IMG/VR virus record: IMGVR_UViG_3300034066_001650
Location: 1-31,413 of that record
Strand: one strand, 5' to 3'
Origin: a virus
Length of the DNA stretch: 31,413 nucleotides
The notes under the pieces were generated by a model. That model saw only the letters and a program-made list of their open reading frames with translations, was not told the origin of the DNA and did no database searches. Position 1 is the first letter of the stretch. Every line of letters starts with the position of its first letter. Positions 3,793-22,682 of the stretch are shown here, one piece after another. Position numbers and translations under genes: made by a program.

Positions 3793-4575
3793 ATGGCATC
3801 ATACGCAAGCTATAAAAAAGTAGTTGGAGATCAAGTACTCTCTACTTCCATTCCAGATTCTAAATTAGAATCTACAGCTTTTAAAAATTATACAGTCCAG
3901 TGGATTCGTGGATGTTTGGGTGTTTGTAGCCCTGGATGTTGCTGCTTATGGACAGTTCCAAGTGGCGTAAGACGAGTTACTTTTGAACTTTGGGGTTCTG
4001 GTGGAAATGGTGCTGGTGCTTGTTCTAATGGTCGCTGTCAGCACTATGCTGGAGCACAGGGAGGGTATTATAATATAAAAACAATTTCGGTATCTAGTGG
4101 GTGGACCTATACTATATGTGCTGGTGGTGTTTATCCATGTAATAGTATTGAATGTAATGGATGCGAAGGTTGCTCATCGTATATTACTGGATGTGGATTA
4201 AGTAACTTCTGTGCAATTGGTGGATGTGCTGGATGTGCCGATTCTAACTGGAACGTCCCATGTTTTTCCGATCAAGGTAGATGTTGCATGGCTCCTGGTG
4301 CATGGGGTGGTGATTTTGGAATGGGTAATCATAGAGGTGCATTTACTGGTGCTTGGAACTGTCACTGCTATAGACACATATTCTGTGCTTCTGGTGCCCC
4401 ATTCTTAGGTGGAGCTAACGTTACTGGAGAATTAACAGAATGTTGGATTCGTTGTGGTTGCTGGAACGTTCCTTATGGTAGTGGTGGACAAAATGCTATG
4501 ACCACATATTGTGGTGGTTGCTGTGGACAGGGAGGAACTGGTGGCCCTGGTGTTGTTAAAATTACATATTTCTAA
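3793..4575 (+). CDS. Cys/Gly-rich adhesin-like structural protein, copy 1
   Basis: 260 residues, first of three tandem paralogs. The N-terminus MASYASYKK is shared by all three. About residues 40-60 hold a CCC cluster followed by LWTVPSGV and a beta strand FELWGSGG. The rest is Gly-rich with about 28 cysteines (roughly 11 percent), in clusters such as ECNGCEGC, RCCM, NCHC and CWIRCGCW, and it ends GGPGVVKITYF. The glycine-rich layout recalls phage tail adhesins such as T-even gp38, but the cysteine load is unusual. No signal peptide or membrane segment. The cysteines could form disulfides after lysis or bind metal. A late promoter lies just upstream. Function as a fibre-tip adhesin is inference. 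Confidence 0.75.
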   Translation: MASYASYKKVVGDQVLSTSIPDSKLESTAFKNYTVQWIRGCLGVCSPGCCCLWTVPSGVRRVTFELWGSGGNGAGACSNGRCQHYAGAQGGYYNIKTISVSSGWTYTICAGGVYPCNSIECNGCEGCSSYITGCGLSNFCAIGGCAGCADSNWNVPCFSDQGRCCMAPGAWGGDFGMGNHRGAFTGAWNCHCYRHIFCASGAPFLGGANVTGELTECWIRCGCWNVPYGSGGQNAMTTYCGGCCGQGGTGGPGVVKITYF

Positions 4576-4620
4576 GGAGTAGAATCAAATGGCATCTTAT
4601 GCAAGTTACAAAAAAATAAA
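4553..4620 (+). repeat. 68-bp perfect direct repeat, copy 1
   Basis: Identical to 5364-5431. It covers the end of one Cys-rich gene, the 13-base gap with ribosome-binding site AAGGAG, and the first 32 bases of the next gene. The spacing of 811 bp equals one gene unit, so it marks a tandem duplication junction. Confidence 0.95.
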
Positions 4621-5386
4621 CGGATCATCTTTTGTTGCTGGAACTCTAGATGAAACAAAATTTGATTCTACTGCTAGAAAGACTTTTGGTGTTAAATGGT
4701 TTTATGGTGATCCTGGAGCTTGTTCGCAGGGATGTTGCTGTCTTTGGACTGTTCCTTCTGGTGTAACTAAACTTTTTATTGAGCTTTGGGGAGCTGGTGG
4801 GTCTGGACATGGTGCATGTTCTTGTAGTAGATGTCACCACTATAGAGGTGCTGGTGGTGGAGCATATAACTCTAAAATGATTACTTCTGCCTCTGGATGT
4901 CAATATACTGTTTGTGCTGCAGGAAATGGTAACTGCTGCAGATTTGAATGTAGTGGATGTATTGGATGTGCTTCTTATACAACTGGATTTAATTTATCCA
5001 ATTTTTGTGCTGTTGGTGGATCTCCTGGATGTGCAAACACTGATTGGGCAACTCCTTGTAACTCTGTCTGGGATTGTTGTTTGCAAGGTGAAAACAATGG
5101 TGGTGACTTTGGATACATGAACCATGCTGGTGCTTTTGGTGGTGTTGAATGGTGGTTTGGTGTTGGATTCTGCCATTGTCATCATCAACAAACTCAACCA
5201 ACTTCTGCTCCTTTAATTGGAACAACTGTTCAACAGTCAATTAACTACTGTTGGATGCGTTGTGGTTGTTGGACTGTTCCTTATGGTCATGGTGGACAGG
5301 GGGCTATGACTTCCTATTGTGGAAGCAGTTGCTGTGGGCAAGGTGGTATGGGTGGTCCTGGTCTTGTTAAAATTACATATTTCTAA
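4589..5386 (+). CDS. Cys/Gly-rich adhesin-like structural protein, copy 2
   Basis: 265 residues, second tandem paralog, 13 bases after copy 1 with AAGGAG upstream of the ATG. It shares the MASYASYKK start, the CCCLWTVPSGV segment and the GGPGLVKITYF ending. About 27 cysteines. Its middle (about residues 85-190) is the most divergent of the three: the block GAWGGDFG.GNHRGAF of copies 1 and 3 is replaced by NNGGDFGYMNHAGAF, and there is a His-rich insert CHCHHQQ. The C-terminal part (QQ....CWMRCGCW, PYGHGGQGAM) matches copy 3 closely. Same likely role as copy 1; the divergent middle suggests a variable receptor-binding face. Confidence 0.75.
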   Translation: MASYASYKKINGSSFVAGTLDETKFDSTARKTFGVKWFYGDPGACSQGCCCLWTVPSGVTKLFIELWGAGGSGHGACSCSRCHHYRGAGGGAYNSKMITSASGCQYTVCAAGNGNCCRFECSGCIGCASYTTGFNLSNFCAVGGSPGCANTDWATPCNSVWDCCLQGENNGGDFGYMNHAGAFGGVEWWFGVGFCHCHHQQTQPTSAPLIGTTVQQSINYCWMRCGCWTVPYGHGGQGAMTSYCGSSCCGQGGMGGPGLVKITYF

Positions 5387-5431
5387 GGAGTAGAATCAAA
5401 TGGCATCTTATGCAAGTTACAAAAAAATAAA
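5364..5431 (+). repeat. 68-bp perfect direct repeat, copy 2
   Basis: Identical to 4553-4620 and placed at the copy 2/copy 3 junction. It includes stop codon, spacer, ribosome-binding site and start of the next paralog, and would allow unequal recombination that gains or loses one gene unit. Confidence 0.95.
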
Positions 5432-6191
5432 TTCCTCTGATGGCATAGTTGATGGTACTATTCCATCAACTGCTGTTGGTGGAAATGCCTTTGCAACATG
5501 GGAAGTTAAGTGGTTTTATGGGCAACCTTGTTTTTGTTCTACTGGTTGCTGTTGCCTTTGGACTGTTCCGAATGGTGTATTTAAGGCATTTATTGAACTC
5601 TGGGGTGCTGGTGGAAATGGACACGGGGCATGTACAACTAGTAGATGTCAACACTTTGCGGGAGCACAAGGAGGATATTATAATTCAAAAATGATTAATG
5701 TATGTCCTGGATGGACATATACAGTCTGTGCTGCTGGTGTGTATCCTTGTTTGTCTAACGAATGTTTGGGTTGTTGTGGATGCTCATCGTATATGACTGG
5801 ATGTGGATTGAGCAACTTCTGTGCATTGGGTGGAATTACTGGGTGTGCAAATGGTAGTTGGAATGAAGGATGCTTCTCAGATCAAGGTGCCTGCTGTATG
5901 GCTCCTGGTGCATGGGGTGGTGATTTTGGACTGGGTAATCATAGAGGGGCATTCTTTATTCATGGATCTCAATGTCATTGCCATTGTAAGGGTGCTACAC
6001 CAACTCCAGCTCCATTTATTGGTACACAAGTTCAACAAAATGTTCATGAATGTTGGATGCGTTGTGCGTGTTGGACTGTTCCTTATGGTCATGGTGGACA
6101 AGGTGCAATGGGAACCGTTTGTGGTGGTGGATCTTGTTGTGGTCAAGGTGGAACTGGTGGTCCTGGACTTGTTAAAATTAGCTTCTTATAA
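5400..6191 (+). CDS. Cys/Gly-rich adhesin-like structural protein, copy 3
   Basis: 263 residues, third tandem paralog, same 13-base spacer and AAGGAG site. About 29 cysteines. The middle (CSSYMTGCGLSNFC, CFSDQGACCMAPGAWGGDFG) follows copy 1, while the first residues (MASYASYKKIN) and the C-terminal third (QQNVHECWMRC, PYGHGGQGAM) follow copy 2, so it looks like a recombinant of its two neighbours. A short His/Cys cluster CHCHC lies near residue 192. No signal peptide. A late promoter follows immediately after its stop codon. Adhesin role is inferred from composition and place. Confidence 0.75.
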   Translation: MASYASYKKINSSDGIVDGTIPSTAVGGNAFATWEVKWFYGQPCFCSTGCCCLWTVPNGVFKAFIELWGAGGNGHGACTTSRCQHFAGAQGGYYNSKMINVCPGWTYTVCAAGVYPCLSNECLGCCGCSSYMTGCGLSNFCALGGITGCANGSWNEGCFSDQGACCMAPGAWGGDFGLGNHRGAFFIHGSQCHCHCKGATPTPAPFIGTQVQQNVHECWMRCACWTVPYGHGGQGAMGTVCGGGSCCGQGGTGGPGLVKISFL

Positions 6192-6240: not shown

Positions 6241-6936
6241 ATGGCACAAATTTCAGTAGAATTTGAATTTCCAGAATTCAATGATTATCTAGTAGATCAT
6301 TCTTTTAGTGAAGGAAAAACACGTAAATATACTTATCATGGACCAGATAAAATTTATCTCCAAATTGGAGAAGATGGTACTGAAAAATATGGTCCATTAA
6401 CTGAAGAAGACATTGCTGATGGTAGACCAATTCCTGCTGATGTTGTTGAATGGTATGAAGTTGATTGTACAGAAAATCCTCTTGTATGTCATTTAAGAGG
6501 ACCAATTGTAAATGAATTTCAGGAAGATTATACTGGAGAAAAATTCCATCCTGGATCACCTGAAATAGAAGGATATGATAGATATTCTTATCCAACACCT
6601 CTTAAGCCAGAGGACGTTTTTGATAAGTGGAATGTTAAAGTTACAGATGGTAATGTAGAATTAACTACATATACAGTTTCTGAAAAACTTCATGGCAAAC
6701 CTGAAAACTTAACATGGGGTGATATTAGAAATCATAGAGATATGATGCTTGGACTTAGTGATGGTCAAATTGCTGAAGATATGCCACAATCATTGAAAGA
6801 TGAATGGATGGAATATCGTCAAAAATTAAGAGATCTTCCTACTGTAATGGAAAATGCGGGGGTTGATCCAAATATTGCTTACTATATGTTCCCATTACAA
6901 CCAAAAGCTGCTAATATTGCTGGAAGAGATTCCTGA
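6241..6936 (+). CDS. Virion-associated protein with tail-assembly-chaperone-like C-terminus
   Basis: 231 residues. The N-terminal half is acidic and unrecognised (FEFPEFNDYLVDHSF, then GPDKIYLQIGEDG). The C-terminal part, about residues 160-205, reads WGDIRNHRDMMLGLSDGQ followed by YRQKLRDLP. This is the pattern of the Phage_tail_APC domain (R..RD.ML..SD......YRQ.LRDLP) seen in small tail-fibre assembly chaperones. The gene lies after the adhesin genes and has its own late promoter, which fits a role in assembling or attaching fibres. The start is the only ATG near the promoter. The C-terminal family assignment is by motif only. Confidence 0.7.
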   Translation: MAQISVEFEFPEFNDYLVDHSFSEGKTRKYTYHGPDKIYLQIGEDGTEKYGPLTEEDIADGRPIPADVVEWYEVDCTENPLVCHLRGPIVNEFQEDYTGEKFHPGSPEIEGYDRYSYPTPLKPEDVFDKWNVKVTDGNVELTTYTVSEKLHGKPENLTWGDIRNHRDMMLGLSDGQIAEDMPQSLKDEWMEYRQKLRDLPTVMENAGVDPNIAYYMFPLQPKAANIAGRDS

Positions 6937-6946
6937 GTTATAATTT

Positions 6947-7483
6947 ATGAGTGAATATACATTATATAATTTTGATTATGTTAAAGAAAATCAAATAGAA
7001 ATAATAAAAGAACTGAAGACATCTCAAGATAATTTAGTTAAATATGGAGTTTTCGATACAACGAAAGCTTATATTTACTATAATATCTTTGGGGTGTCTT
7101 CTCCTTCTAAGCATATGTATAGAGTTTATTCCAAAGTTAGGGATATTGTAAGAGAACAACTTCCAGATCAAATGATTTGGATTCAGTCTTGGTTAAACTA
7201 TCAAAGTTATAATGAAGTTTTACCTTGGCATAATCATACTTCAAGTTGGCATGGGTACATATCAATAGAACCTCAAGATACTGTAACTGAATTTGAGAAT
7301 TGGTCCATCGAAAATGAATGTGGAAATATTTACTTTGGTCCTGGTGGATATTTACATCGTGTAGTTAATAAGTCAAATTATAAAGGAAAGAGAATTACGA
7401 TAGGTTTTGACATTATTTTAGAAGAAGATTATAATGGCATTATACTACCTACAGAAAATTTTGGTGCAATCCCATTACTATAA
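6947..7483 (+). CDS. 2OG-Fe(II) oxygenase-like protein (2OG-FeII_Oxy_5 type)
   Basis: 178 residues. The middle reads PWHNHTSSWHGYISI, matching the W(H)xH....(S)GxYY metal-site segment of the PF13759-type oxygenases. The distal segment GNIYFGPGGYLHRVVNKS followed by KRITIGFD supplies the second His and the Arg that binds 2-oxoglutarate. This family hydroxylates protein residues or small molecules using Fe(II), O2 and 2-oxoglutarate. It is the first gene of the accessory cassette and its stop codon overlaps the next start (TAATG). No clear ribosome-binding site is seen. The substrate is unknown. Confidence 0.7.
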   Translation: MSEYTLYNFDYVKENQIEIIKELKTSQDNLVKYGVFDTTKAYIYYNIFGVSSPSKHMYRVYSKVRDIVREQLPDQMIWIQSWLNYQSYNEVLPWHNHTSSWHGYISIEPQDTVTEFENWSIENECGNIYFGPGGYLHRVVNKSNYKGKRITIGFDIILEEDYNGIILPTENFGAIPLL

Positions 7484-8169
7484 TGTTTGAAGTTAATAGT
7501 GAATTAAAAGTAAAAATAGAAAAAGTAAAAGATATTACTTGGGAATCTATATCTGATGGTGTTGTAAAATATAGTTCAGATACAGTTGAAAAAATGGTTT
7601 TTATAATCGATGATTTTTATAAAAATCCAGATGAGATACGGGATTGTGCAATAAAATCAAAAACTTATACTGATAAAGAACGTCTTGCTGGTGCTATTGG
7701 TAGACGGGTATGGGATGAAGAATTTGAAATAATGAATCAATTAAATATTAATCTTTGTCCAGTTTTTGAACAATTATGTTTATATCCAAAATGGCATATT
7801 GAATTTGATAAAGAACATCATTACAATAAATGGCAATATATGAGATTTGTTGTTAATGTTACTAGTAATAAGGAAATTGTTAATTCTGGTAGAGATTGGA
7901 AAACTATATGTCATGTTGATGGTCCATATAATAAATGGGCAGCATTAGTATTTTTGAATAAAGAAAATGAGTGTGAAGGTGGTACTAGTTTTTATTCTGT
8001 AAGTATTCCAAATTCTGATGGAACTACAAATTCACCAAAATTAGAATATACATGTGATATGAAATATAATAGATGTATCTTGTATGACGCAAATCAAATA
8101 CATGGTGCAGTGATGGAACCACATATGTTTAAAACATGTGATCGTTTAACTCAAATAATGTTTTTTTAA
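7483..8169 (+). CDS. DUF6445-like 2OG-Fe(II) oxygenase-fold protein
   Basis: 228 residues. The segment VFIIDDFYKNPDEIRDCAI at about residues 40-58 is the typical opening of DUF6445-like proteins. The core has H-x-D (CHVDGPYNKWAALVFLN), then QIHGAV and a closing RLTQIMFF strand, giving the H-x-D...H...R layout of 2-oxoglutarate/Fe(II) oxygenases. To my knowledge DUF6445 proteins in bacteria often lie beside tryptophan-halogenase-family genes, and one lies four genes downstream here. Translationally coupled to the preceding oxygenase by TAATG. Substrate unknown; the family name is from memory of motifs. Confidence 0.65.
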   Translation: MFEVNSELKVKIEKVKDITWESISDGVVKYSSDTVEKMVFIIDDFYKNPDEIRDCAIKSKTYTDKERLAGAIGRRVWDEEFEIMNQLNINLCPVFEQLCLYPKWHIEFDKEHHYNKWQYMRFVVNVTSNKEIVNSGRDWKTICHVDGPYNKWAALVFLNKENECEGGTSFYSVSIPNSDGTTNSPKLEYTCDMKYNRCILYDANQIHGAVMEPHMFKTCDRLTQIMFF

Positions 8170-8192
8170 TCTTCTAAATAAAATTGAATCGT

Positions 8193-8206
8193 GCTATAAT
8201 TATAGC
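8193..8206 (+). promoter_or_regulatory. 14-bp palindrome containing a TATAAT -10-like element
   Basis: GCTATAATTATAGC is a perfect palindrome in the 66-base gap before the glycosyltransferase gene. It contains TATAAT at 8195-8200, about 35 bases before ATG 8236. No convincing -35 box stands 17 bases upstream. It could be a promoter, an operator, or chance in AT-rich DNA. Confidence 0.4.
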
Positions 8207-8235
8207 AATATTAATTACACTGAGGTTGACTGTAA

Positions 8236-9372
8236 ATGAGATCCAAGGCATTTTTTATAAATGGTGGAGCTGGCAGAGTGATTTGCTCCATCCCTGCATT
8301 TGAAAAATACGCAGAAACTCATGACGATTTTGTTATAGTTTGTGAAGGGGGAACTGATTTTTATAAAGGACATCCAATTCTGCACAAATATGTTTTTGAT
8401 AATTGGCATAAAGGTCTATTCGAAAAAGAAATTAAACATAGAGATTGTATAACTCCAGAGCCATATCGATCTTGGCATTATTACAATCAGAAGTGTAATC
8501 TTGCTCAAGCATTTGATGTTATCATTAATGAATTGGATGAACCGAGAGAAATTGGTGATCCAACAATTCATTTAAATAAAATGGAACTTCTTGCTGGTTA
8601 TAATTCTGTGGAAGAAATTAAAGCAGGAACTGGTAAGGATAAAGTTTTAGTTGTACAACCTTTTGGTAGATCTGTTGAACAAGTCGGGGCAGATTTTATT
8701 GCAGATCCAACATCTCGTAGTTTTTCTCTCAATAATATTGTAGAAATTATTAACGAACTTAAAAAAGATTATGCAATTATTATTATGAGTGAGATTCATT
8801 TTCCTCTTGAAGAAAATGAAGAAAAATCTAAATATCGTGTCGCAAGACCACAAATTACAGATATGAGAATGTGGGCAAGTATTATCAATGCTTCAGATCA
8901 CTTCCTGGGTTGTGATAGTATGGGGCAACATATTGCTAAAGCATTTGGTAAAACTGCTACTGTTGTTTTGGGATCAACATATCCAGAAAATATTTCATAT
9001 CCAAATTCAAAGGATTTTAATATTATTGATGCTGGATTAGATAGGAGAAAATATAGCCCTATTCGTATCTCTATTGATGAAGAAATTGATCGATATAATG
9101 ATGAAGCAATGGAGTTGAATAAGCAAAAAATACAAGAAGTTATTTCTTCTGTTAAAAAAAGTTTAGGTAAATCTGTTGCTTATACTGGAAATTGGAAACC
9201 ATCTAATGCAGCACAAAGTTCTTGTTGTCCAACTACTCAAAATGCTCTTCCTATGGCACCAGAAATAAAGGCACCCTCTACTCCAGTATTGATGCCAAAA
9301 GAAAATAAAGGATTTGGTGGAAAAGAATCATTAGATAAAGAAATTAATAACATTTTAAAAAAACTTAAGTGA
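8236..9372 (+). CDS. Glycosyltransferase family 9-like (heptosyltransferase type)
   Basis: 378 residues. The N-terminal half opens with a Rossmann-like segment FFINGGAGRVICSIPAFEKY. The C-terminal half carries the GT9 signature: MWASIINASDHFLGCDSMGQ, then HIAKAFGKTATVVLGSTYPE, matching the D(S)G..H.A.A.G.P...(F)G.T.P pattern of ADP-heptose:LPS heptosyltransferases. The last 60 residues are a Pro/Ser-rich linker and a Lys-rich helix that are not part of the usual family. GAGG sits upstream of the ATG. Heptose-nucleotide genes downstream make a heptosyltransferase role attractive, but sugar and acceptor are not proven. Confidence 0.7.
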   Translation: MRSKAFFINGGAGRVICSIPAFEKYAETHDDFVIVCEGGTDFYKGHPILHKYVFDNWHKGLFEKEIKHRDCITPEPYRSWHYYNQKCNLAQAFDVIINELDEPREIGDPTIHLNKMELLAGYNSVEEIKAGTGKDKVLVVQPFGRSVEQVGADFIADPTSRSFSLNNIVEIINELKKDYAIIIMSEIHFPLEENEEKSKYRVARPQITDMRMWASIINASDHFLGCDSMGQHIAKAFGKTATVVLGSTYPENISYPNSKDFNIIDAGLDRRKYSPIRISIDEEIDRYNDEAMELNKQKIQEVISSVKKSLGKSVAYTGNWKPSNAAQSSCCPTTQNALPMAPEIKAPSTPVLMPKENKGFGGKESLDKEINNILKKLK

Positions 9373-9382
9373 GGTATAATAA

Positions 9383-11185
9383 ATGACACAATGGATTGCT
9401 GCTATTGCTAGAGGGCATAACTCTGGGGTTTGTCTTCTTAAAGATGGTGAATTAGTTTTATCTATTGAGGAAGAGCGTTTATCTAGGGCAAAATATGATG
9501 GTGGACCATTGGCGTCAATGGTTAAAATTCTTGAATATACTGATAAACTTGATTATTTGGTAATCGCACATACACAACCTTTAAGTGACGCTGGAAGAAT
9601 TGATTTTTCTGGTGATGATATCTATACTGGTCTTGCAAGAAAACTTGGATTAATTGATAGAAATCAAGATAATTATAATCATCCTCAAGTTATAGATTTA
9701 AGTAGAAATCATCATAAACTTCATGCTGCATGTGCATTTTATCGTTCTGGATTTGAAAGTGCAGTATCATTAGTTGTTGATGGTGCTGGAACTTTTATTC
9801 CAATGCAAATTGGGCGAAATCAAGAAATGACCTGGGAACTTGAATCTATTTTTAGTTGTGAATATCCAGCGTTATTCAAAACTCTTTATAAGCATCAATC
9901 TGGAAGAGGTCCTTGGGCATCTGTAAGAATACCCGAAATGCCTAGTGATACTGAAGGTGAAGACGGAACACATGAATTAGTTCTTGATGATAGTGCTGGT
10001 ATTACAAAAGCATATGAAGCAGCAACACAATATTGTGGTTGGCCTCCCATTGAAGCAGGTAAAACTATGGGATTATTCCCTTATGGAAAACCAAATGATA
10101 ATATTCCTGCAATTTATACTGATGGTAATGGTGGTAGTTGGAAGACTTCTGATCGAAATGTTATTATTCCAACCTATCCTAACGGTGCATTAGTTAATGA
10201 AGGTAGATATGAATTTCTTAGAACACCAGAAGAATTTGATGATCTAACACTTCTTGAGAATCGTCGTGATATGGCATATGCTATTCAAACACAATCACAA
10301 CAAATGGTTCTTGATTTAATTCGTAAAGCAGTTGAAATGACTGGAAATAATAATGTCGTTATTTCTGGTGGATATGGTCTTAATTGTGTTGCAAACTATT
10401 GGTATCTTGAGCAACTTAAAGATGAAAACATTAATCTTTATGTTGAACCAGTAAGTAATGATGCTGGAACTGCAATTGGTGCTGCATTAATATGGCATCA
10501 TAAAGTCAATGAAGATAATAATGTAAAAGAAAAAATTCAAAATCTTTATACTGGACCTAGTTATAATTACAGTAATCAAGAGATTAATTTAGTCTCGGAA
10601 AAATATAATGCGACGGAAGTAACATCTGCATCTTATGAAGATGTTATTGAGTTAATCATGGATAAAAATATTGTCGCAGTATTCCAGGGAAGGTCGGAAG
10701 CTGGTCCTAGAGCACTTGGTAATAGATCCATTCTTTATGATCCAAGAGATCCAAATGGTAAAGATCATGTAAATCGTATTAAGAGAAGAGAATACTTTAG
10801 ACCTTTTGCTGGATCTATTCTTCATGAGCATGTTCATGATTGGTTTGATCTTCGTGGTATGGAAGATTCTCCCTTCATGATGTATGCTGTAAATTGTAAA
10901 GAAGGTATAGAAGAAAAAATTCCTGCAATTATTCATGTTGATGGAACTTGTAGAATTCAAACTGTTACTCAAGAACAGAATTTGCATTACTATAATTTAA
11001 TCAATACCTTCTACGAAAAAACTGGTTGTCCTATTATTTTTAATACATCATTTAATCTTGGTGGAGAACCTCTGGTTGAAACTCTTGATGATGCTGTAAG
11101 AACTCTTGCTAATAGTTTAATTGAATATCTGTATTTGCCAGAATACAATACTTTAATTTACGTTAAAAATCAGGAGGATGAATGA
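9383..11185 (+). CDS. NodU/CmcH-family O-carbamoyltransferase
   Basis: 600 residues, full length for the family. N-terminal Kae1-like domain: GHNSG at 11-15, EEERLSR at 29-35, the metal-site region NHHKLHAA at 109-116, the nucleotide-site VVDGAG at 131-136, and ISGGYGLN near 334. C-terminal domain: EAGPRALGNRSIL near 440 and RREYFRPFAGSIL near 467, both typical. These enzymes form carbamoyl-adenylate from carbamoyl phosphate and ATP and move the carbamoyl group to a sugar or polyketide hydroxyl. The gene lies between the glycosyltransferase and the halogenase and overlaps the latter by ATGA. A second, divergent copy lies at 18521-20107. The acceptor is unknown. Confidence 0.92.
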   Translation: MTQWIAAIARGHNSGVCLLKDGELVLSIEEERLSRAKYDGGPLASMVKILEYTDKLDYLVIAHTQPLSDAGRIDFSGDDIYTGLARKLGLIDRNQDNYNHPQVIDLSRNHHKLHAACAFYRSGFESAVSLVVDGAGTFIPMQIGRNQEMTWELESIFSCEYPALFKTLYKHQSGRGPWASVRIPEMPSDTEGEDGTHELVLDDSAGITKAYEAATQYCGWPPIEAGKTMGLFPYGKPNDNIPAIYTDGNGGSWKTSDRNVIIPTYPNGALVNEGRYEFLRTPEEFDDLTLLENRRDMAYAIQTQSQQMVLDLIRKAVEMTGNNNVVISGGYGLNCVANYWYLEQLKDENINLYVEPVSNDAGTAIGAALIWHHKVNEDNNVKEKIQNLYTGPSYNYSNQEINLVSEKYNATEVTSASYEDVIELIMDKNIVAVFQGRSEAGPRALGNRSILYDPRDPNGKDHVNRIKRREYFRPFAGSILHEHVHDWFDLRGMEDSPFMMYAVNCKEGIEEKIPAIIHVDGTCRIQTVTQEQNLHYYNLINTFYEKTGCPIIFNTSFNLGGEPLVETLDDAVRTLANSLIEYLYLPEYNTLIYVKNQEDE

Positions 11186-12666
11186 AACCACTTCGTAGAA
11201 TTGTAATAGTTGGGGGAGGAACTTCTGCTTGGTTGACTGCTGCGTTCCTCTTAAACAGAACTAGAAAATATTGTGAGATAGTTGTAATTGATAAAGAACA
11301 AGGTCAAACTGTTGGTGTTGGAGAAGCAACTGTTTTAAGTTTTAAACCATTTATGGAGGCATGTGGATTTCCAATTGAATCCTGGTTTAATCAAATAGAT
11401 GCTACTTTTAAATCTGGAATTTTATTTGCAAATTGGCAAAAAGAAGGGGAAGATATTTGGCACCCATTTGCATTCCCAGCATATGATTGGGCTAATACAA
11501 ACTTATTGAATATCTGGACTCAATGTAAAGATCTTGATTTTAAATTGAATGCTACAGCATTATATCATCCTTCAGTGGATGAGAATAAAATAGATCCAAC
11601 AAATCTACCCGCATATGCATACCATATTGATTGTGGTAAATTAGTTAAATTTATCCAAAATAAAATTATGGATAAAATAACTTTTGTTCAATCCGAGGTT
11701 GTTGATATTGTTAGAGATAATACTGGCAATGTCCAGTACTTATTGTTAAGTGATGGACAAGAAATAGAATCTGATTTATTTGTTGATTGTACTGGATTTA
11801 AGAGATTAATTGGATCCAAACCAGATACTGTAAATCTTCGTGATAGGTTGTTTTGTGATACTGCGGTTGCTGGGCATATTCCATATAATGATATTAAAAA
11901 TGAAATGAGACCTTATGTAATATGTGATGCAGTTGAGCATGGATGGATTTGGAATATTCCTGTTCAAACCAGAATTGGATCTGGGTTAGTTTTTAATAGA
12001 TCTATTACAGACCCAGAAGAAGCAAAAGATTATTTTGTTAATTATTGGGATAATAGAGTAGAACGTGAATCACTAAAAGTTATTGATTGGACTCCTTATT
12101 ATCATAATAACTTTTGGGAAAATAATGTTGTATGTATTGGATTATCTGCTGGATTTATTGAACCATTAGAAAGTACTGGTGTAGCATTAATTTGTGCTGG
12201 AGTAATTGGATTGGGAGAAGCACTTAAAGGATCTTCTTATAATATGCAAGACATTAATTTGTATAATTGTAAGATGAAATGTTTCTTTGAGAATGCTGTA
12301 GACTTTGTAAATATGCATTATTCTAGATCTCAAAAGAGTGGAAAATTCTGGGAGTGGGTTAAAGAAACTCATCAAATAACTGATACTCAAAAATATTATG
12401 AATTTGAACTTGAGCATAATCCATATCAAGTTCCTAATGATGGAGATTTTATGTTTGCTGGTGAAAATTGGAGTGTATGGTTATTTCAATTAATGGATGT
12501 AGAAAATATTTTATATAAAAATAATGGATTGTCCGAAATTCAAACGAGACGAATAATTTCAGATTTTCGTAAAAATGAACTAGAAAAGCATAAAAATTCT
12601 GTGCTCCATTATAATTATGTTAAAGGTTATTCAACTATGATAAATGACAATAAAAATAATAGATAA
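11182..12666 (+). CDS. Flavin-dependent halogenase (tryptophan-halogenase family)
   Basis: 494 residues. FAD-binding motif IVIVGGGTSAWLTAAFLL at about 7-24; GVGEATV at 45-51; ATFKSGI with Lys77, equivalent to the catalytic Lys of PrnA; GWIWNIP at 254-260, the WxWxIP motif of flavin-dependent halogenases; EPLESTG at 327-333 with Glu330, equivalent to the PrnA active-site Glu. All key residues are present, so it should make HOX/lysine haloamine using FADH2, O2 and halide. AGGAGG stands 4 bases before the ATG, and the start overlaps the carbamoyltransferase stop. A related cyanophage enzyme, VirX1, is known to be a halogenase preferring iodide. The substrate here is unknown, and free tryptophan should not be assumed. 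Confidence 0.93.
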   Translation: MKPLRRIVIVGGGTSAWLTAAFLLNRTRKYCEIVVIDKEQGQTVGVGEATVLSFKPFMEACGFPIESWFNQIDATFKSGILFANWQKEGEDIWHPFAFPAYDWANTNLLNIWTQCKDLDFKLNATALYHPSVDENKIDPTNLPAYAYHIDCGKLVKFIQNKIMDKITFVQSEVVDIVRDNTGNVQYLLLSDGQEIESDLFVDCTGFKRLIGSKPDTVNLRDRLFCDTAVAGHIPYNDIKNEMRPYVICDAVEHGWIWNIPVQTRIGSGLVFNRSITDPEEAKDYFVNYWDNRVERESLKVIDWTPYYHNNFWENNVVCIGLSAGFIEPLESTGVALICAGVIGLGEALKGSSYNMQDINLYNCKMKCFFENAVDFVNMHYSRSQKSGKFWEWVKETHQITDTQKYYEFELEHNPYQVPNDGDFMFAGENWSVWLFQLMDVENILYKNNGLSEIQTRRIISDFRKNELEKHKNSVLHYNYVKGYSTMINDNKNNR

Positions 12667-13123
12667 TTTTTTAGAAAAACAATACTTCAATGAATTAGAA
12701 GATACTATACTTGGACCAATGTTTCCTTGGTTTTTTCAAAAAGGTATAGTATCACCGTATGATGGATATTCTCAATTTATTCATCTTTTTTATACTGATT
12801 ATGAACCAAAAACAAAATATTTTGGATTGATATTTCCCATATTTGAAATTTTAGGTGCATCATCTGTTGTAAGATCTAAAGCTAATTTACTTATAAAAAC
12901 TGACAATATAATTCAACATGATTTTCATTCGGATCATCCAGATTGCACAACTGCTATTTTATATCTAAATACAAATAACGGAAAAACGATATTTGAGGAT
13001 GGAACGGAAGTTGAAAGTATTGCCAATCGGTTAATCGTTTTTAATTCTAATCAAAAACATACTGGTACAACTTGTACTGATGAATACAATAGAGTAGTAA
13101 TTAATTTTAATTATCATGTCTAA
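12644..13123 (+). CDS. 2OG-Fe(II) oxygenase-like protein
   Basis: 159 residues. It opens IKIIDNFLEKQYFNELE, a common start of phage prolyl-hydroxylase-like proteins. Metal site FHSDHPDCTTAILYLN gives H-x-D, followed by GKTIFEDG, then NSNQKHTGT for the distal His, and NRVVINFNYH for the Arg. The start lies inside the last 23 bases of the halogenase gene, so the two are likely co-translated. The next gene also overlaps its end by 8 bases. It probably hydroxylates the same product or protein on which the neighbouring enzymes act; this is inference. Confidence 0.7.
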   Translation: MTIKIIDNFLEKQYFNELEDTILGPMFPWFFQKGIVSPYDGYSQFIHLFYTDYEPKTKYFGLIFPIFEILGASSVVRSKANLLIKTDNIIQHDFHSDHPDCTTAILYLNTNNGKTIFEDGTEVESIANRLIVFNSNQKHTGTTCTDEYNRVVINFNYHV

Positions 13124-13535
13124 AGAAATAACTAAAGTATTTGTAAACGGAACATTTGATCTTTTGCATAAAGGGCATATTGAAATGTTAAATTATGCAA
13201 AATCAAAAGGTGATATTTTATATGTTGCCATTGACACTGATCAAAGAGTCAAAGAAAAAAAAGGAGAATCAAGACCAATCAATAGTCAAAATGATAGGGC
13301 AGAATTTTTAATTAATTTAAAATCTGTTGATTATGTTGTTTTATTCAATACCGATGAAGAATTGGAATATTTGGTTAAAAGTATAGAACCTGATATAATG
13401 GTTGTAGGTTCTGATTGGATTGGTAAAACTGTTATTGGATCTGAACACGCAAAGGAATTAAAATTTTTTAATAGATTAGATGGATACTCAACTACAGGCA
13501 CAATTGAACGTATTATTAATAGGGGAGAAGTGTGA
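13116..13535 (+). CDS. HldE-C/RfaE2-like nucleotidyltransferase (heptose-1-phosphate adenylyltransferase type)
   Basis: 139 residues, the size of a single cytidylyltransferase-like domain. Motifs: VNGTFDLLHKGH at 10-21 with the HxGH nucleotide-binding site; VAIDTDQRVKEKKGESRPIN; RAEFL; IEPDIMVVGSDW; and the C-terminal YSTTGTIERI. This order fits the C-terminal half of HldE, which joins D-glycero-beta-D-manno-heptose 1-phosphate to AMP from ATP. Glycerol-3-phosphate cytidylyltransferase is the main alternative. The downstream gene starts inside its conserved C-terminus and is the PfkB-type kinase that HldE carries as its N-terminal half, which favours the heptose reading. Confidence 0.82.
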   Translation: MSKEITKVFVNGTFDLLHKGHIEMLNYAKSKGDILYVAIDTDQRVKEKKGESRPINSQNDRAEFLINLKSVDYVVLFNTDEELEYLVKSIEPDIMVVGSDWIGKTVIGSEHAKELKFFNRLDGYSTTGTIERIINRGEV

Positions 13536-14286
13536 AGATGAATATCTTTATGGTGATGTAGAACGCATCAGTCCAGAAGCTCCAGTACCAATACTTAAAT
13601 ATACTCACACAGAAATATATTCTGGAATGTCTTCTAATGTTAAAAATAATCTAGAGTCTTTTGGTATAAATGTAGTTCATATAACAAATAAAGAATCTAT
13701 TAAAAAAACTAGAGTAGTTCATAATGGTAGTAAACAACAACTTCTAAGAATTGATAATGATGTAAAAGTATCTCCGATTAAACCCTCTGAGGTTCGGAGT
13801 GCTTTTTTGCATTTTTCATATGATGCAGTTGTTGTATCTGATTATGATAAAGGTCTTCTTACAACTGATGACCTTAAAGTAATTTGTCAAAACTTTAATG
13901 GTCCCGTTTTTATTGATACTAAAAAACGAGATTTATTTACTGAAAAGAATGTAATTTTTAAAATAAATCAGAGAGAATATAATAACCTCATATCTTATCC
14001 AGAGGATGTACATTTAATTGTTACTATGGGTAGTGATGGAGTTAAATACTTGGGGTATACATATCCATCTGAAAAAGTAAATGTATTTGATGTTGTTGGT
14101 GCTGGTGATACCTTCTTAGCAGCATTTGTACACTCTTACTTGACATGTAAAGAAGATAGGTTTAGATTTTCTGAATCTATTAAATATGCAAATAAAGCAG
14201 CAGCAATTGCTGTTCAACATTTTGGTACATATACATTATCAGAAGATGATATTAGGAGTTTAAATAATGGCAATATATTGCATTGA
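13480..14286 (+). CDS. PfkB-family kinase, HldE-N/RfaE1-like (heptose-7-phosphate kinase type)
   Basis: About 268 residues from ATG 13480. A TTG at 13504 would begin NVLLIGEKCEDEY, exactly where family members begin, so the true start may be there; neither has a clear ribosome-binding site. Motifs: GDVERISPEAPVP at 25-37, strongly typical of HldE kinases (DT.RISPEAPVPV); KQQLLRID; DYDKGLL; and the PfkB signature VVGAGDTFLAAF at 205-216 with base Asp210. It is shorter than the usual kinase domain of about 315 residues, and the canonical PGGAANVA is altered to SGMSSNVK. It overlaps the upstream adenylyltransferase by up to 56 bases in another frame, and overlaps the next gene by 20 bases. Confidence 0.82.
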   Translation: MDTQLQAQLNVLLIGEKCEDEYLYGDVERISPEAPVPILKYTHTEIYSGMSSNVKNNLESFGINVVHITNKESIKKTRVVHNGSKQQLLRIDNDVKVSPIKPSEVRSAFLHFSYDAVVVSDYDKGLLTTDDLKVICQNFNGPVFIDTKKRDLFTEKNVIFKINQREYNNLISYPEDVHLIVTMGSDGVKYLGYTYPSEKVNVFDVVGAGDTFLAAFVHSYLTCKEDRFRFSESIKYANKAAAIAVQHFGTYTLSEDDIRSLNNGNILH

Positions 14287-14596
14287 TATTGATGGTACAA
14301 TTTGTGAAAATGGAGCATGTAAAGTGTGTGCATATGAAGGAAGTATGCCTCATTTAGAACGAATTGAAAAAATTAATCAACTTTATGAAGATGGGCATAC
14401 AATAAAATATTTTACCGCTAGGGGAATGGGTAGATACAATGATGATGCTCAAAAGGCGAGGGATAAATTTTATAATTTAACTAAAATGCAATTAGAATTA
14501 TGGGGATGTAAATACCATGAATTGATAATGGGTAAACCATCAGCAGACTACTATATAGATGATAAAGCAATAAAAGACAATGATTTCTTCAATTGA
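14267..14596 (+). CDS. Small HAD-superfamily phosphatase
   Basis: 109 residues. Motif I YCIDIDGTIC holds nucleophile Asp7 and Asp9; motif II is YFTARG with Thr50; then GKPSADYYIDDKA with Lys90 and the Asp98/Asp99 acidic pair. No cap domain fits in this length. Small phosphatases of this type occur in capsule and surface-sugar clusters. Lying between the heptose kinase and the rest of the cassette it could remove the 7-phosphate (the GmhB step), but it lacks the Cys-rich zinc loop of classical GmhB, so the substrate is uncertain. It overlaps both neighbours, suggesting translational coupling. Confidence 0.78.
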   Translation: MAIYCIDIDGTICENGACKVCAYEGSMPHLERIEKINQLYEDGHTIKYFTARGMGRYNDDAQKARDKFYNLTKMQLELWGCKYHELIMGKPSADYYIDDKAIKDNDFFN

Positions 14597-14933
14597 ATTT
14601 GTTCCTAAAGGATGGGGATTTGAAAAGTGGATCGTTAATAATGAACAATATTGTGGTAAACTTCTTTATTTTGTAAAGGGTAGAAAATGTTCTTGGCATT
14701 ATCATAAGATAAAAGACGAAACATTTTATGTTCAATCTGGATTGTTAATACTTCATTATGGGTATGATGATGATATTAATCTAGCACAAAAAAGAACACT
14801 TAAAAAAGGAGAAAAATTTCACGTCCCAGTTGGACTTAGACATAGAATGTATGCCCTAGAAGATACTGAATTATTTGAATTTTCTACTCAACATTTTGAA
14901 GAAGATAGTATTAGAATTATTAAGGGGGACTAA
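14580..14933 (+). CDS. Cupin-fold protein, sugar isomerase/epimerase-like
   Basis: 117 residues. The cupin motif 1 is CSWHYHKIKDETFYVQSG at about 38-55 (H.H...E....G) and the second metal segment is FHVPVGLRHRMYA near residues 80-92. The opening PKGWGFEKWIVNNEQYCGK resembles small cupins linked to mannose-6-phosphate isomerase/guanylyltransferase. A metal-dependent sugar-phosphate isomerase or a sugar-binding protein is plausible. It starts inside the HAD gene and its stop overlaps the next start (TAATG). The reaction cannot be assigned from sequence. Confidence 0.7.
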   Translation: MISSIEFVPKGWGFEKWIVNNEQYCGKLLYFVKGRKCSWHYHKIKDETFYVQSGLLILHYGYDDDINLAQKRTLKKGEKFHVPVGLRHRMYALEDTELFEFSTQHFEEDSIRIIKGD

Positions 14934-15517
14934 TGGAACTGCAAGACTTGATTGTAGAATATCCTAATTTTATATCTGATGAATGTGCGGATAAAATACG
15001 TTCCTGGTTTTTAGAAAATGAACATCTTCATATAGATGGATCTGTGTCTGGATATGGAGAGTCTGGGTATCAAAATTATGTTAGATTGGATGTTAAAAAG
15101 GCAAAACAATCTAATCCACCACCAGATCACGAAATATCACATTTAATGACACAAATTATTTGTGATGTATATACTAATTACAGTAACATAAGACCTTCAG
15201 TAACAATGGATTATGTTTGCATTAAAGACTATTCTGTAAGAGTCTATGAAAAAAATAATGGGTATTTTGATTGTCATATTGATCAAGGTCCTGGTGGTAA
15301 TGTAACTAGAACGTTTGCGGTAATAATATATTTAAATGATGTGGTGGAAGGTGGGGAGACAGAATTTCCACATTATGATATAAAAGTTAAACCAGAAAAA
15401 GGTAAAGTTTTAATATTTCCTTGTAACTATTTGTTTCCTCATAGTGGAAACACTCCAATATCTGGAGAAAAATATATTGCCACTGCTTTTATTAACTACA
15501 AAGAATTTTCATGTTAG
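14933..15517 (+). CDS. Prolyl-4-hydroxylase-like 2OG-Fe(II) oxygenase
   Basis: 194 residues. The core FDCHIDQGPGG gives H-x-D, followed by TFAVIIYLNDVVEGGETEFP, the very typical P4H strand pair. KPEKGKVLIFPCNYLFPHSG carries the distal His and GEKYIATAFINY the Lys that binds 2-oxoglutarate. The match to phage and bacterial P4H domains is strong. Such enzymes can hydroxylate prolines or other residues, or small molecules. It sits in the overlapping operon with the heptose genes. The start is fixed by TAATG coupling to the cupin gene. Confidence 0.85.
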   Translation: MELQDLIVEYPNFISDECADKIRSWFLENEHLHIDGSVSGYGESGYQNYVRLDVKKAKQSNPPPDHEISHLMTQIICDVYTNYSNIRPSVTMDYVCIKDYSVRVYEKNNGYFDCHIDQGPGGNVTRTFAVIIYLNDVVEGGETEFPHYDIKVKPEKGKVLIFPCNYLFPHSGNTPISGEKYIATAFINYKEFSC

Positions 15518-16125
15518 AATATAATATAACTAAACCTTTTGGTCCTATCATTTTTGAATGTTTTTGCCCACAAAATGTGGTGGATAATTTTAATAATTTC
15601 ATTGATAATATGGATCAAGAAACAAAAGAACTATGTTCCTCTAAGCATAGTAAAGTTCAAGGATTTCCTGATCTATTATCAAGAGGATTTGAGATTGTAT
15701 ATTTGACAAGTGATCAATTAGATACTATTGGATTTTCATCTTTTATTGCTAATGCTTCTGAAGAATATATGAAAGTTCATGGTGTGAATAGTGCGGATAT
15801 ATATTTTAACAATTCACATTTTTCAGAGTTATTTGTTGATGTTTGGGTTAATAGATATTTTCAAAATGACTATACACCACCACATGATCATGCTGGACAT
15901 ATATCTGGAATAACGATATTGGATTTACCAGAAGATTCGGATTGGTATGATTTACATAATTTGGAATTTATTTGGAATAATGAGCATCATAGACCTGAGC
16001 AGAAAATAGGAAAAACTTTTTTGTTTCCCAGTAACCTTATGCATTGGGTTACTAAACAAAAAAGTCTTTTAGAAAGAAGGACTATTAGTTTTAATTTACT
16101 TGTAAATACTCAGCAACAGACTTGA
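15511..16125 (+). CDS. 2OG-Fe(II) oxygenase-like protein (2OG-FeII_Oxy_5 type)
   Basis: 204 residues. The central part VDVWVNRYFQNDYTPPHDH followed by AGHISGITILDLP is the metal-site region, and GKTFLFPSNLMHWVTKQ then RRTISFNLLV completes the site with His and Arg. This is the same family as the protein at 6947-7483 (shared layout H.H...SG...FPS.L.H.V....R..ISF). It overlaps the P4H-like gene by 7 bases. Its 3' end overlaps the convergent epimerase gene by 35 bases, so the two C-termini are read from opposite strands of the same DNA. Confidence 0.72.
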   Translation: MLEYNITKPFGPIIFECFCPQNVVDNFNNFIDNMDQETKELCSSKHSKVQGFPDLLSRGFEIVYLTSDQLDTIGFSSFIANASEEYMKVHGVNSADIYFNNSHFSELFVDVWVNRYFQNDYTPPHDHAGHISGITILDLPEDSDWYDLHNLEFIWNNEHHRPEQKIGKTFLFPSNLMHWVTKQKSLLERRTISFNLLVNTQQQT

Positions 16126-16885
16126 AGTTATAATTTTTTAACCAACTCATATCTGCACAAGTATAAGTTTGATATTTACCAACTAAATGATCTGGGAAGG
16201 GAATGGTATTAATTTTACCATTCTCTTTTTTTGCAACTAATTCTGCAACCTCTTGGAATGAAATTGGATTTCCTGTGCCAATGTCATAAATTCCACTTGG
16301 TGCATCATTGTTTAAAACAATATCAACAATATCATCAACACAAACAAAGTCACGAAGAAATTTGTCTGATCCTTCAAATAAATTAAGTTCTCCAGTTTCT
16401 CTAATTTCTTTGGTGAATTTACTAACTGGACTTGCTTGATTTCCTTTATGATCTTCTCCATCACCGTACACATTAAAATAACGGAATCCCTGAATCAATT
16501 GGAATTGGTCTAAGTTATCTAATACACAATAATCAATTTGAAGTTTTGAAATTGCGTATTGATTTAATGGATTAATCTGCCCATTAGTGTTTCCGTATAC
16601 TGATGCTGAAGATGCATATTTTACTGGAATTTTATATTCGATTGCTTTATTAAATAAGGCACAAGAAAATGCTACATTATAATGCCATAATTTTTGTAGA
16701 TTTTTTTCTGTGGTCGATGATATTGCACCTTGATGTATGATAAGACTTACTTTGTCCCAATCTTCAAATTCTCTTAATAATCTCCAAGAATCTTCTTGAT
16801 CTATTAATAGTATGTCTTCATTTGTACTGATTTTATTTACAAAATGTTGACCAATAAAACCAGATGATCCTGTAAGTATAATCAT
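16091..16885 (-). CDS. hldD: NAD(P)-dependent sugar-nucleotide epimerase, ADP-heptose 6-epimerase (HldD) type
   Basis: 264 residues, minus strand. Rossmann motif TGSSGFIG at 5-12; HQGAISSTTE at 51-60, close to the HldD-specific HEGACSSTTE; ASSASVYG at 91-98; catalytic YAISK at 110-114; and the diagnostic block GFRYFNVYGDGEDHKGNQAS, then LFEGSDKFLRDFV, matching HldD (RYFNVYGP.E.HKG.MAS, FEGS....RDFVYV). It converts ADP-D-glycero- to ADP-L-glycero-D-manno-heptose in the LPS heptose pathway. Somewhat shorter than bacterial HldD. AGGAG stands 6 bases before the ATG. It is the only minus-strand gene of the cassette and is convergent with the oxygenase gene. The family is strong; exact specificity is likely but unproven. 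Confidence 0.87.
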   Translation of the reverse strand: MIILTGSSGFIGQHFVNKISTNEDILLIDQEDSWRLLREFEDWDKVSLIIHQGAISSTTEKNLQKLWHYNVAFSCALFNKAIEYKIPVKYASSASVYGNTNGQINPLNQYAISKLQIDYCVLDNLDQFQLIQGFRYFNVYGDGEDHKGNQASPVSKFTKEIRETGELNLFEGSDKFLRDFVCVDDIVDIVLNNDAPSGIYDIGTGNPISFQEVAELVAKKENGKINTIPFPDHLVGKYQTYTCADMSWLKNYNFKSVAEYLQVN

Positions 16886-18474: not shown

Positions 18475-18502
18475 GCACTTATAATATAAATTATTATAAC
18501 AA

Positions 18503-18510
18503 TATTTATT
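18503..18510 (-). promoter_or_regulatory. Possible late promoter AATAAATA for the minus-strand bilin reductase
   Basis: On the minus strand this reads AATAAATA, 28 bases before the bilin reductase ATG at 18474, inside the 46-base divergent gap. On the plus strand the same gap has only a near match, TATAAATT at 18485-18492, ahead of ATG 18521. The sequence is very AT-rich, so confidence is low. Confidence 0.35.
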
Positions 18511-18520
18511 TGTTACTTTT

Positions 18521-20121: not shown

Positions 20122-20136
20122 TTAATTTGGGAGAAC

Positions 20137-20677: not shown

Positions 20678-20694
20678 CTCTCGGGAGAAAAAAA

Positions 20695-22644: not shown

Positions 22645-22682
22645 ACAAATCTAAATATAAAATAATCTTTTTTTTGTTTGGA

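Follow-up and report, generated by a model that had tools for sequence, protein, structure and literature searches.

The IMG/VR virus record IMGVR_UViG_3300034066_001650, analysed here over positions 1 to 31,413 (the whole stretch of 31,413 nucleotides, hereafter the window), carries beside its tail genes a cassette of 13 open reading frames (ORFs) packed into positions 6947-16885, most of them overlapping or abutting, 12 on the plus strand and one, for an epimerase, on the minus strand. The central observation on this cassette, and a new one, is that its glycosyltransferase (GT) is coupled with cysteine-rich proteins encoded upstream and that, in three of the loci compared (L230, L238, and L232), a different cysteine-rich protein is found there. 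On balance, the locus is probably a phage-borne system for the heptosylation and further tailoring of the phage's own tail adhesins; each chemical step of the cassette is inferred from protein family and context. Marine cyanobacterial viruses appear to carry a nearly self-sufficient gene set for an unusual seven-carbon sugar and for its attachment to their own cysteine-rich tail proteins.

An earlier note on this DNA, made from the sequence alone, described the thirteen tightly packed genes with correct positions and overlaps but drew the left boundary of the unit too narrowly. The unit reaches beyond position 6947, and the genes for a tail fibre, three paralogous adhesins, and a tail-assembly chaperone belong to it as well. 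Its features are as follows (2OG, 2-oxoglutarate; ADP, adenosine diphosphate).

399..3728, plus strand: tail-fibre protein; many GT loci have a homologue in this position; the frame is open at the left end of the window, and 399 is the first listed in-frame start.
3793..4575, plus strand: Cys/Gly-rich tail adhesin 1; 10.8% Cys; homologues upstream of the GT.
4589..5386, plus strand: Cys/Gly-rich tail adhesin 2; 10.2% Cys; Gly_rich_2 at E 6e-5, just under the cut-off; phrog_4205; structure modelled.
5400..6191, plus strand: Cys/Gly-rich tail adhesin 3; 11.0% Cys.
6241..6936, plus strand: tail assembly chaperone (Phage_tail_APC); Pfam E 2.6e-7, above the cut-off.
6947..7483, plus strand: 2OG-Fe(II) oxygenase-like protein, optional; Pfam E 0.0056, below the cut-off; phrog_81 at E 3e-8; present in a minority of loci.
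7483..8169, plus strand: DUF6445 protein, possibly oxygenase-like; Pfam match above the cut-off, family of unnamed function; common across loci, not universal.
8236..9372, plus strand: GT9-like protein, predicted as a probable heptosyltransferase of the adhesins; phrog_8954; structure model; D-[ST]-x-G-Q-H motif.
9383..11185, plus strand: NodU/TobZ-type carbamoyltransferase; PF16861 at E 4e-61, PF02543 at E 2e-28.
11182..12666, plus strand: flavin-dependent (tryptophan-type) halogenase, optional; PF04820 at E 3e-92.
12644..13123, plus strand: 2OG-Fe(II) oxygenase-like protein, optional; Pfam E 4e-5, below the cut-off.
13116..13535, plus strand: heptose-1-phosphate adenylyltransferase-like protein (HldE C-domain type); Pfam cytidylyltransferase-like; NCBIfam rfaE_dom_II, under the cut-off.
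13480..14286, plus strand: heptose-7-phosphate kinase-like PfkB kinase (HldE N-domain type, shortened); NCBIfam rfaE_dom_I, under the cut-off.
14267..14596, plus strand: HAD phosphatase of the EcbF-BcbF type, candidate heptose-1,7-bisphosphate phosphatase; NCBIfam EcbF-BcbF, under the cut-off; homologues annotated phosphoheptose isomerase.
14580..14933, plus strand: cupin, candidate sedoheptulose-7-phosphate isomerase replacing GmhA; Pfam cupin; some homologues annotated cysteine dioxygenase.
14933..15517, plus strand: 2OG-Fe(II) oxygenase; Pfam match above the cut-off.
15511..16125, plus strand: 2OG-Fe(II) oxygenase, optional; Pfam match above the cut-off.
16091..16885, minus strand: HldD-like ADP-heptose 6-epimerase; 42% identity to E. 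coli RfaD; NCBIfam HldD TIGR02197, under the cut-off.

The gene content of the window fits a T4-like cyanophage, and a 148.8-kb metagenomic contig (L022) encodes a GT identical to that of the window over its full length. The fraction of guanine plus cytosine is 0.36-0.43 in the tail genes, 0.28-0.34 in the cassette, and 0.25-0.38 downstream; because the low values continue downstream, the tail genes, not the cassette, are the compositional outlier.

Relatives were collected as the best 80 of 158 matches to the GT and of 325 matches to the adhesin and, in further searches, the best 80 of 591 and of 580 (the distant-GT set). Gene order at the GT loci was counted over 124 distinct GTs from viral contigs, with isolates and genome contigs left aside; the cysteine counts required more than 3.5 kb of upstream DNA, which reduced the 124 loci to 106. 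In every one of these 106 loci, a protein of at least 200 residues with more than 5.7% cysteine is encoded upstream (median of the maxima, 10.6%); the loci form 87 clusters at 95% GT identity and 25 at 70% and, therefore, are not independent. All 270 upstream proteins of the adhesin family contain at least 8.3% cysteine, and just 8 of the 269 other upstream proteins reach 4%, all in L230, L238, and L232, where the usual adhesin is missing. Among the 717 proteins encoded elsewhere in the GT loci (outside the adhesin family and the upstream set), none does. As a control, 18 hand-picked proteins from the tail-fibre regions of nine cyanophages outside the GT hits showed 0.4-3.0% cysteine. Two single-cell viruses that have the GT but were missed by the adhesin query served as a test, and both encode a protein with 9-11% cysteine upstream. 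Counted from the other side, 187 loci contain an ORF of at least 200 residues with at least 4.5% cysteine, of which 19 lack the GT; 11 of these are adhesin contigs and six are genome contigs, the other two being L235, whose ORF is on the opposite strand, and L253.

The cysteine-rich proteins themselves are diverse. The viral proteins that match the fold of adhesin 2 are mostly glycine-rich and tail proteins; L230 encodes RCC1-type propeller proteins with cysteine-loaded loops, and L238 is its close relative; L232 encodes two cysteine-rich proteins that belong to no Pfam family, and L246 and L248, which have just under 3.5 kb of upstream DNA and so stand outside the 106, carry yet another. One-to-one comparison of the cysteine-rich groups detected no similarity at E 1e-3 except between L253 and L230 and between L281 and L232. 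High cysteine content is, then, common to unlike scaffolds: it is seen in Gly_rich_2 and RCC1 proteins as well as in several that belong to no family. The adhesins encoded just upstream, one of the targets proposed in the earlier note, emerge as the most likely one given the linkage between GT and adhesin; their cysteine richness had not been foreseen.

The clustering of the cassette genes is not due to chance, as the order recurs across viral contigs and isolates, and the view of the cassette as one linked unit stands; scattered genes in relatives, which would have spoken against the note's reading, were looked for and not seen. The typical string runs tail fibre, adhesin (three or one), chaperone, oxygenase, GT, carbamoyltransferase, a variable slot, adenylyltransferase, kinase, a second variable slot, HAD, cupin, oxygenase, and, on the opposite strand, epimerase. 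The adhesin family precedes the GT in 103 of 106 loci, and in 115 of 117 the first assigned gene to follow the GT encodes the carbamoyltransferase; within 10 kb after the GT, carbamoyltransferase, adenylyltransferase, kinase, HAD, and cupin occur together in 44 of 46 loci, and the epimerase in 46 of 46. Starting from the adhesin, the GT lies downstream in 69 of 80 loci, and the remaining 11 have less than 4 kb of downstream DNA. Among 126 distinct kinases from viral contigs, 122 of 123 have the adenylyltransferase as a direct neighbour, and, of 59, 57 have the HAD and 58 the cupin no more than 5 kb away; the GT is in the locus of 91 of these kinases, and 15 GT-less loci have more than 8 kb of upstream DNA.

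Isolates display the same arrangement. In S-SSM7, Sf-FS3, P-SSM2, and S-CAM3, the unit adjoins tail or neck genes, and Sf-CH8 has the adenylyltransferase, kinase, HAD, and cupin, with this GT not in the stretch viewed. In the phage collection, 55 records match the GT, and four (L281-L284) of the 35 without an adhesin match were read; the 19 cyanophage-isolate records with the GT (seven named phages) are identical to the 19 that match the adhesin. The heptose core, the GT, and the first carbamoyltransferase are nearly fixed, whereas the halogenase, extra carbamoyltransferases, a methyltransferase (seen in L002), and several oxygenases vary, an optional character that the earlier note had not anticipated. 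In some cassettes (L061, L203), HAD and cupin are flipped as a pair to the other strand. Contigs of metagenome-assembled genomes titled Rhodobacteraceae (L087) and Euryarchaeota (L100) hold the phage cassette with adhesins and, accordingly, look like misbinned phage.

The glycosyltransferase had been described as GT9-type, and this assignment is supported by the predicted structure but not by domain libraries, where nothing was hit in Pfam up to E 0.1 or in NCBIfam up to 0.01. For a model from 36 sequences (predicted local distance difference test score, 81.6), the top Foldseek matches are GT9 proteins, namely, a Veillonella GT9 protein, WaaC, WaaF, and TibC. In VIA-align, whose rows do not constitute a search, the Z scores are 22.3 for the Veillonella GT9, 20.0 for WaaF, 19.3 for TibC, and 18.6 for WaaC, with a range of 18.3-22.3 over GT9, WaaF, WaaC, and TibC proteins. 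The GT is thus predicted to adopt a GT-B fold of the GT9 type. A D-[ST]-x-G-Q-H motif is present in all 124 distinct GTs, and hhalign places it on the donor-site motifs DTGLSH of WaaC and DSGLMH of WaaF. Residues 326-364 of the GT (window positions 9211-9327) form a low-confidence C-terminal tail that often contains cysteine: at least one in 99 of the 121 relatives with a tail, and a CC pair in 42, compared with CC in the body of 1 of 124 GTs.

The kinase, the adenylyltransferase, the EcbF-type phosphatase, the cupin, and the HldD relative suggest, from their sequences, an ADP-heptose pathway without GmhA, and the heptose-type pathway surmised in the earlier note is supported by the epimerase, by the best-scoring models, and by the conservation of the module. 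The epimerase shares with E. coli RfaD (HldD) the residues matching Y140, K144, and K178, which we take to be catalytic, together with its HKG and PFPxxLxGxYQ-like stretches, and scores 215.2 bits against the TIGR02197 equivalog (cut-off, 274.6). The HldE-type kinase and adenylyltransferase score 140.5 against a cut-off of 345 and 125.3 against 181.5, respectively, the rfaE I and II models still being the best-scoring ones; the motifs GAGD[TVS]F and G[TV]FDxxHxGH are kept in 125 of 128 and 115 of 125 relatives. The nearest model of the HAD protein is that of the EcbF-BcbF capsule phosphatases. The cupin pattern HxH...E...H is kept in 102 of 122 relatives, and the best solved matches of the cupin profile include, amid unrelated cupins, D-lyxose/D-mannose isomerase, D-lyxose ketol-isomerase (E ~5e-4), and L-ribose isomerases. 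Stereochemically, turning sedoheptulose 7-phosphate into manno-heptose 7-phosphate is the step that also leads from fructose 6-phosphate to mannose 6-phosphate. A SIS_2 (GmhA-type) domain was found in none of 32 distinct virus records (lists of 13 and 20 with one in common), of which four are isolate genomes and most others contigs, possibly fragments; the same search matched 9 of 14 controls, among them Synechococcus elongatus. In comparison with the GmhA-HldE-GmhB-HldD pathway, then, the phage encodes kinase-like, adenylyltransferase-like, and HldD-like proteins, but the two halves of HldE are separate genes, the phosphatase is EcbF-like, no GmhA-type domain was found, and the cupin fills the gap, where it may stand in for GmhA.

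Two names carried by homologues, 'phosphoheptose isomerase' for the HAD protein and 'cysteine dioxygenase' for the cupin, are backed neither by NCBIfam nor by alignments. The STT-Arg motif of heptose nucleotidyltransferases, which has been linked to promiscuity for nucleoside triphosphates, decides nothing here: a Tyr precedes STT in the window, and, of 177 adenylyltransferase ORFs, 103 have Tyr at this place and 3 a different residue, whereas 71 do not fit the pattern used.

Another type of viral cluster, lacking this GT, is found in L235 (7742-11388), where two transketolase-like half proteins are followed by epimerase, adenylyltransferase, kinase, HAD, and cupin; similar gene strings are present in several contigs, and the epimerase of L235 is only 21% identical to that of the window. 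The transketolase-like halves beside the module fit a seven-carbon precursor, because they could supply sedoheptulose 7-phosphate. In L253 (4894-6180 and 13046-13810), the heptose module, again without this GT, is accompanied by a protein with repeats that, judged by eye, looks like another GT9-like one, and by an RCC1-like cysteine-rich protein.

Put together, these families would allow the following sequence of events. The cupin would isomerise sedoheptulose 7-phosphate to manno-heptose 7-phosphate, the PfkB kinase would phosphorylate C1, the EcbF-type HAD would remove the 7-phosphate, the adenylyltransferase would make ADP-heptose, and the HldD-like epimerase would set C6. The GT9-like enzyme would then move the heptose onto the upstream-encoded cysteine-rich adhesins during virion making, perhaps onto cysteine (S-linked), or else onto Ser/Thr or another side chain. 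Finally, the carbamoyltransferase and, in some phages, the halogenase, methyltransferase, and oxygenases may modify the sugar or nearby side chains. In its most specific form, which we put forward tentatively, the proposal is that GT9-like phage enzymes attach heptose to cysteines of tail adhesins, that unlike adhesin scaffolds became cysteine-dense beside the enzyme, that cyanophages, whose hosts may lack heptose, carry the whole pathway with a cupin for GmhA, and that phages whose hosts make heptose need only the transferase. The S-linkage is plausible in view of the association between the GT and cysteine.

Relatives of the GT outside the cyanophages bear on the last part of this proposal. 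The GTs of Aeromonas phage HJ05 and Vibrio phage D505 are 26.9% and 29.0% identical to it, and within the 20 kb read around each of them no heptose gene was recognised; hosts of the Aeromonas and Vibrio type make ADP-heptose themselves. The gene beside the HJ05 GT encodes a hypothetical protein with up to 12 cysteines per 100 residues (4.1% overall), and that beside the D505 GT encodes an annotated tail protein with up to 9 (2.3% overall). Scans of viral sequences with the Aeromonas GT alone or the Vibrio GT alone yielded no confirmed relatives. No more than 3.5 kb from the GT, 59 of the 80 distant loci encode a protein with 8 or more cysteines per 100 residues, compared with 13 of 305 proteins more than 5 kb away. 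When identical GTs were merged (80 to 68), 101 of 427 near proteins and 9 of 176 far proteins passed (Fisher p 7e-9, uncorrected for relatedness). With more than 4 kb on both sides, 16 of the 23 distant loci without recognised heptose genes pass, as do 26 of the 30 with at least three such genes. At least five contigs of this set (L342, L295, L311, L326, L358) had been in earlier sets, so that the distant set is not independent.

A number of observations weigh against heptosylation of the adhesins, or against its cysteine-linked form. In the remaining 21 distant loci, four have 17-20 cysteines per 100 residues elsewhere (L345, L357, L360, L365), five are weak (8-9), and twelve have none above 7; several of these 21 have little upstream DNA. 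Counts throughout are of distinct sequences, uncorrected by a tree. Chains of the chloroplast complex of NAD(P)H dehydrogenase and photosystem I, which are no heptosyltransferases, reach Z scores of 18.5-19.4, level with TibC and WaaC, after which Z drops to 12.4 for the next other family; hhalign of the GT with WaaC and WaaF gives E ~0.1, short of significance; and the position of the catalytic Asp13 of WaaC reads, by eye, Arg14, which is invariant in the GT alignments. Kinase, adenylyltransferase, HAD, and epimerase all fall below the NCBIfam equivalog or subfamily cut-offs, and the isomerase role of the cupin is drawn from weak similarity and context. Synechococcus elongatus, a freshwater control, gave a SIS_2 match, so that a host could, in principle, supply GmhA, and a review lists heptose in the lipopolysaccharide (LPS) of Spirulina (PMC4515613). 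L253, one of the 18 kinase loci that lack the GT, also has a cysteine-rich protein, RCC1-like; no clear sequence rule around the cysteines is shared across scaffolds; and the cysteines could serve disulfides or metal binding.

This last possibility leads to the alternative that the adhesins are heptosylated on Ser/Thr, the way TibC and AAH modify autotransporters, while the cysteines, as disulfides or metal ligands stabilising exposed loops, only travel along, which we consider doubtful. TibC, whose linkage is on Ser, is among the best fold matches, and the adhesins contain 8.7% Ser and 7.1% Thr. Cysteine is, however, the biggest difference between the adhesins (~10%) and GT-less tail proteins (0.4-3.0%), which mostly are richer in Ser; unlike scaffolds are all cysteine-rich beside this GT, and the catalytic Asp position of WaaC is Arg. 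The resemblance to TibC and AAH, which act on the adhesin autotransporters TibA and AIDA-I, comprises a GT9-like fold, an expected ADP-heptose donor, and an adjacent adhesin gene (PMC4358343). The differences are that the phage adhesins are tail proteins, not autotransporters, that the phage GT aligns from TibC residue 96, without the N-terminal beta-barrel, and that the phage family alignments show no invariant cysteine and hence no four-cysteine iron finger; lacking both barrel and finger, the phage GT is not a member of the TibC family. The phage system differs also in its Arg14, its cysteine-rich acceptor, and its own sugar pathway and tailoring enzymes.

Phages often carry genes that modify surfaces, and the cassette might decorate the host envelope during infection, for instance, to block superinfection, as the earlier note had suggested among its options. 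The adenylyltransferase-kinase-HAD-cupin module indeed occurs also in viral clusters without this GT, together with methyltransferases and other genes. This option, nevertheless, now looks unlikely, as in loci of the present type the module sits among tail-fibre and adhesin genes and the GT tracks the adhesins. Moreover, according to PMC4515613, the LPS of marine Synechococcus WH8102 and CC9311 is without heptose and 3-deoxy-D-manno-octulosonic acid, although a phage could add heptose. WH8102 is the listed host of Sf-FS3.

There is, likewise, only a small chance that the sugar is not a heptose, with ADP-mannose or another activated hexose as the joint product of cupin, kinase, phosphatase, and adenylyltransferase. 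The similarity of the cupin to lyxose and mannose isomerases and the missed equivalog cut-offs of the heptose enzymes would be explained in this way; the level of identity between the epimerase and RfaD, with the conserved stretches, the resemblance of the GT fold to ADP-heptose transferases, and the transketolase-like halves of L235 argue for heptose. It is very improbable that the cassette serves to make a small metabolite with halogen and carbamoyl groups, as in the natural-product pathways of PrnA, RebH, TobZ, and GdmN (the released metabolite of the earlier note), or is filler DNA for headful packaging, a possibility raised for cyanophage LPS genes in PMC3037559. Against this, Pfam scans of 20 window proteins showed no peptide or polyketide assembly protein, most relatives keep the catalytic motifs, gene order is conserved, and 37 of 85 intervals have no halogenase gene.

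If adhesin heptosylation, the reading that we prefer, is correct, it connects several earlier findings. Viral nucleoside diphosphate (NDP)-heptose enzymes are reported to make ADP-heptose in vitro, and the phosphatase is called absent in viruses (PMC11461863, on the 2024 Science paper of Tang et al.), whereas here a candidate phosphatase, isomerase, transferase, and acceptor can be named; the role of the heptose enzymes in viruses is called unsolved in PMC11573728. Sullivan 2010 (PMC3037559) reported seven 'LPS genes' co-occurring in three phages, with function left open, and T4-GC 304, 305, 307, and 308 of these clusters correspond to the adenylyltransferase, kinase, cupin, and epimerase of the cassette; in the text available, they are not tied to adhesins, the GT, or cysteine. 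The earlier note knew of no description of the cassette, and this holds in that none as an adhesin-modifying system was found, but not for four core genes, which are among these 'LPS genes'. In the literature searched, from which subscription papers were mostly absent, neither the cassette as such a system nor an S-linked heptose is described. Should the reading hold, it could represent a new way for viruses to alter their host-recognising surface and would give virus-encoded heptose enzymes a purpose, along with a candidate viral phosphatase and an unconventional isomerase. It would suggest, too, a possible natural substrate of cyanophage halogenases such as VirX1, whose genes are close to those for tail fibres in several phages. 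Some marine phages would, as a group, be editing their receptor-binding proteins chemically, with modular enzymes, so that prediction of host range from sequence would be incomplete.

Of the families named in the earlier note, Pfam matches back the carbamoyltransferase, the halogenase, the cytidylyltransferase-like protein, the PfkB kinase, the cupin, and the epimerase. The carbamoyltransferase has both NodU/TobZ Pfam domains over the cut-off, with TobZ and GdmN as solved relatives; the phage gene is nearly fixed beside the GT. The five 2OG-Fe(II) oxygenase-like proteins of the note fare less evenly: two are over the Pfam cut-off (14933-15517 and 15511-16125), two are under it, and one is a DUF6445 protein. 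One to three halogenase genes are found in 48 of the 85 intervals that are complete. In the window protein, whose solved relatives are PrnA and RebH, WIWNIP at 255 represents the WxWxIP motif, which is kept in 65 of 82 distinct relatives; EPLESTG is at 327, and K77, in the role of the catalytic Lys, is aligned with K79 of PrnA. The dinucleotide motif GxGxxG reads GGGTSA, the last G being A, where PrnA has GGGTAG, and GxGxx[GA] is found in 81 of 82.

VirX1, the halogenase of phage Syn10, belongs to the same superfamily (PDB 6qgm, E 4e-48; PMC8407142). Both halogenase genes of Syn10 follow genes similar to the tail-fibre-assembly region of Syn9, but Syn10 is outside the 55 GT-matching records. 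Over 21 phages, with one halogenase place per phage, tail-fibre or tail-fibre-assembly genes are annotated upstream in ten (S-SSM7, Syn9, S-RIM44, P-TIM40, Sf-FR1, S-WAM1, S-SZBM1, P-RSM6, Sf-FP1, and S-SRM01) and are recognised by similarity or position in Syn10, S-CREM1, and Sf-CH11; P-SSM2 is borderline, with tail-fibre-assembly genes on the other strand, and seven lack them upstream (S-H38, Syn1, S-MbCM6, S-H35, S-PM2, S-SCSM2R, and HTVC008M). In the GT-less phages L260 (Syn9), L266 (Syn10), L262, L263, L265, L270, L272, L273, and L279, one or two halogenases come after tail-fibre genes and are followed by 2OG oxygenases; other proteins at these places, with the annotation 'DNA endonuclease V' or 'minor coat protein', may be oxygenases, too. 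A link between the halogenase and adhesin Trp (3.55 vs 2.84%, p 2e-6 over 79 loci, one of nine residues compared) was not upheld within the three-adhesin layout (p 0.11; 50 loci, 40 with the halogenase), where, of 13 residues, only Lys (p 0.002) and His (p 0.013) differ with the halogenase; the Trp signal probably reflects lineage.

Beside the cassette, positions 17593-23491 of the window contain a glutaredoxin-like ORF, a bilin reductase gene on the minus strand, and a second NodU-type carbamoyltransferase gene (18521-20107). They are followed by a weakly sulfotransferase-like protein, under the cut-off (21904-22644), an ORF that is SpeD-like by reading alone (22674-23009), and an oxygenase-like ORF (23006-23491).

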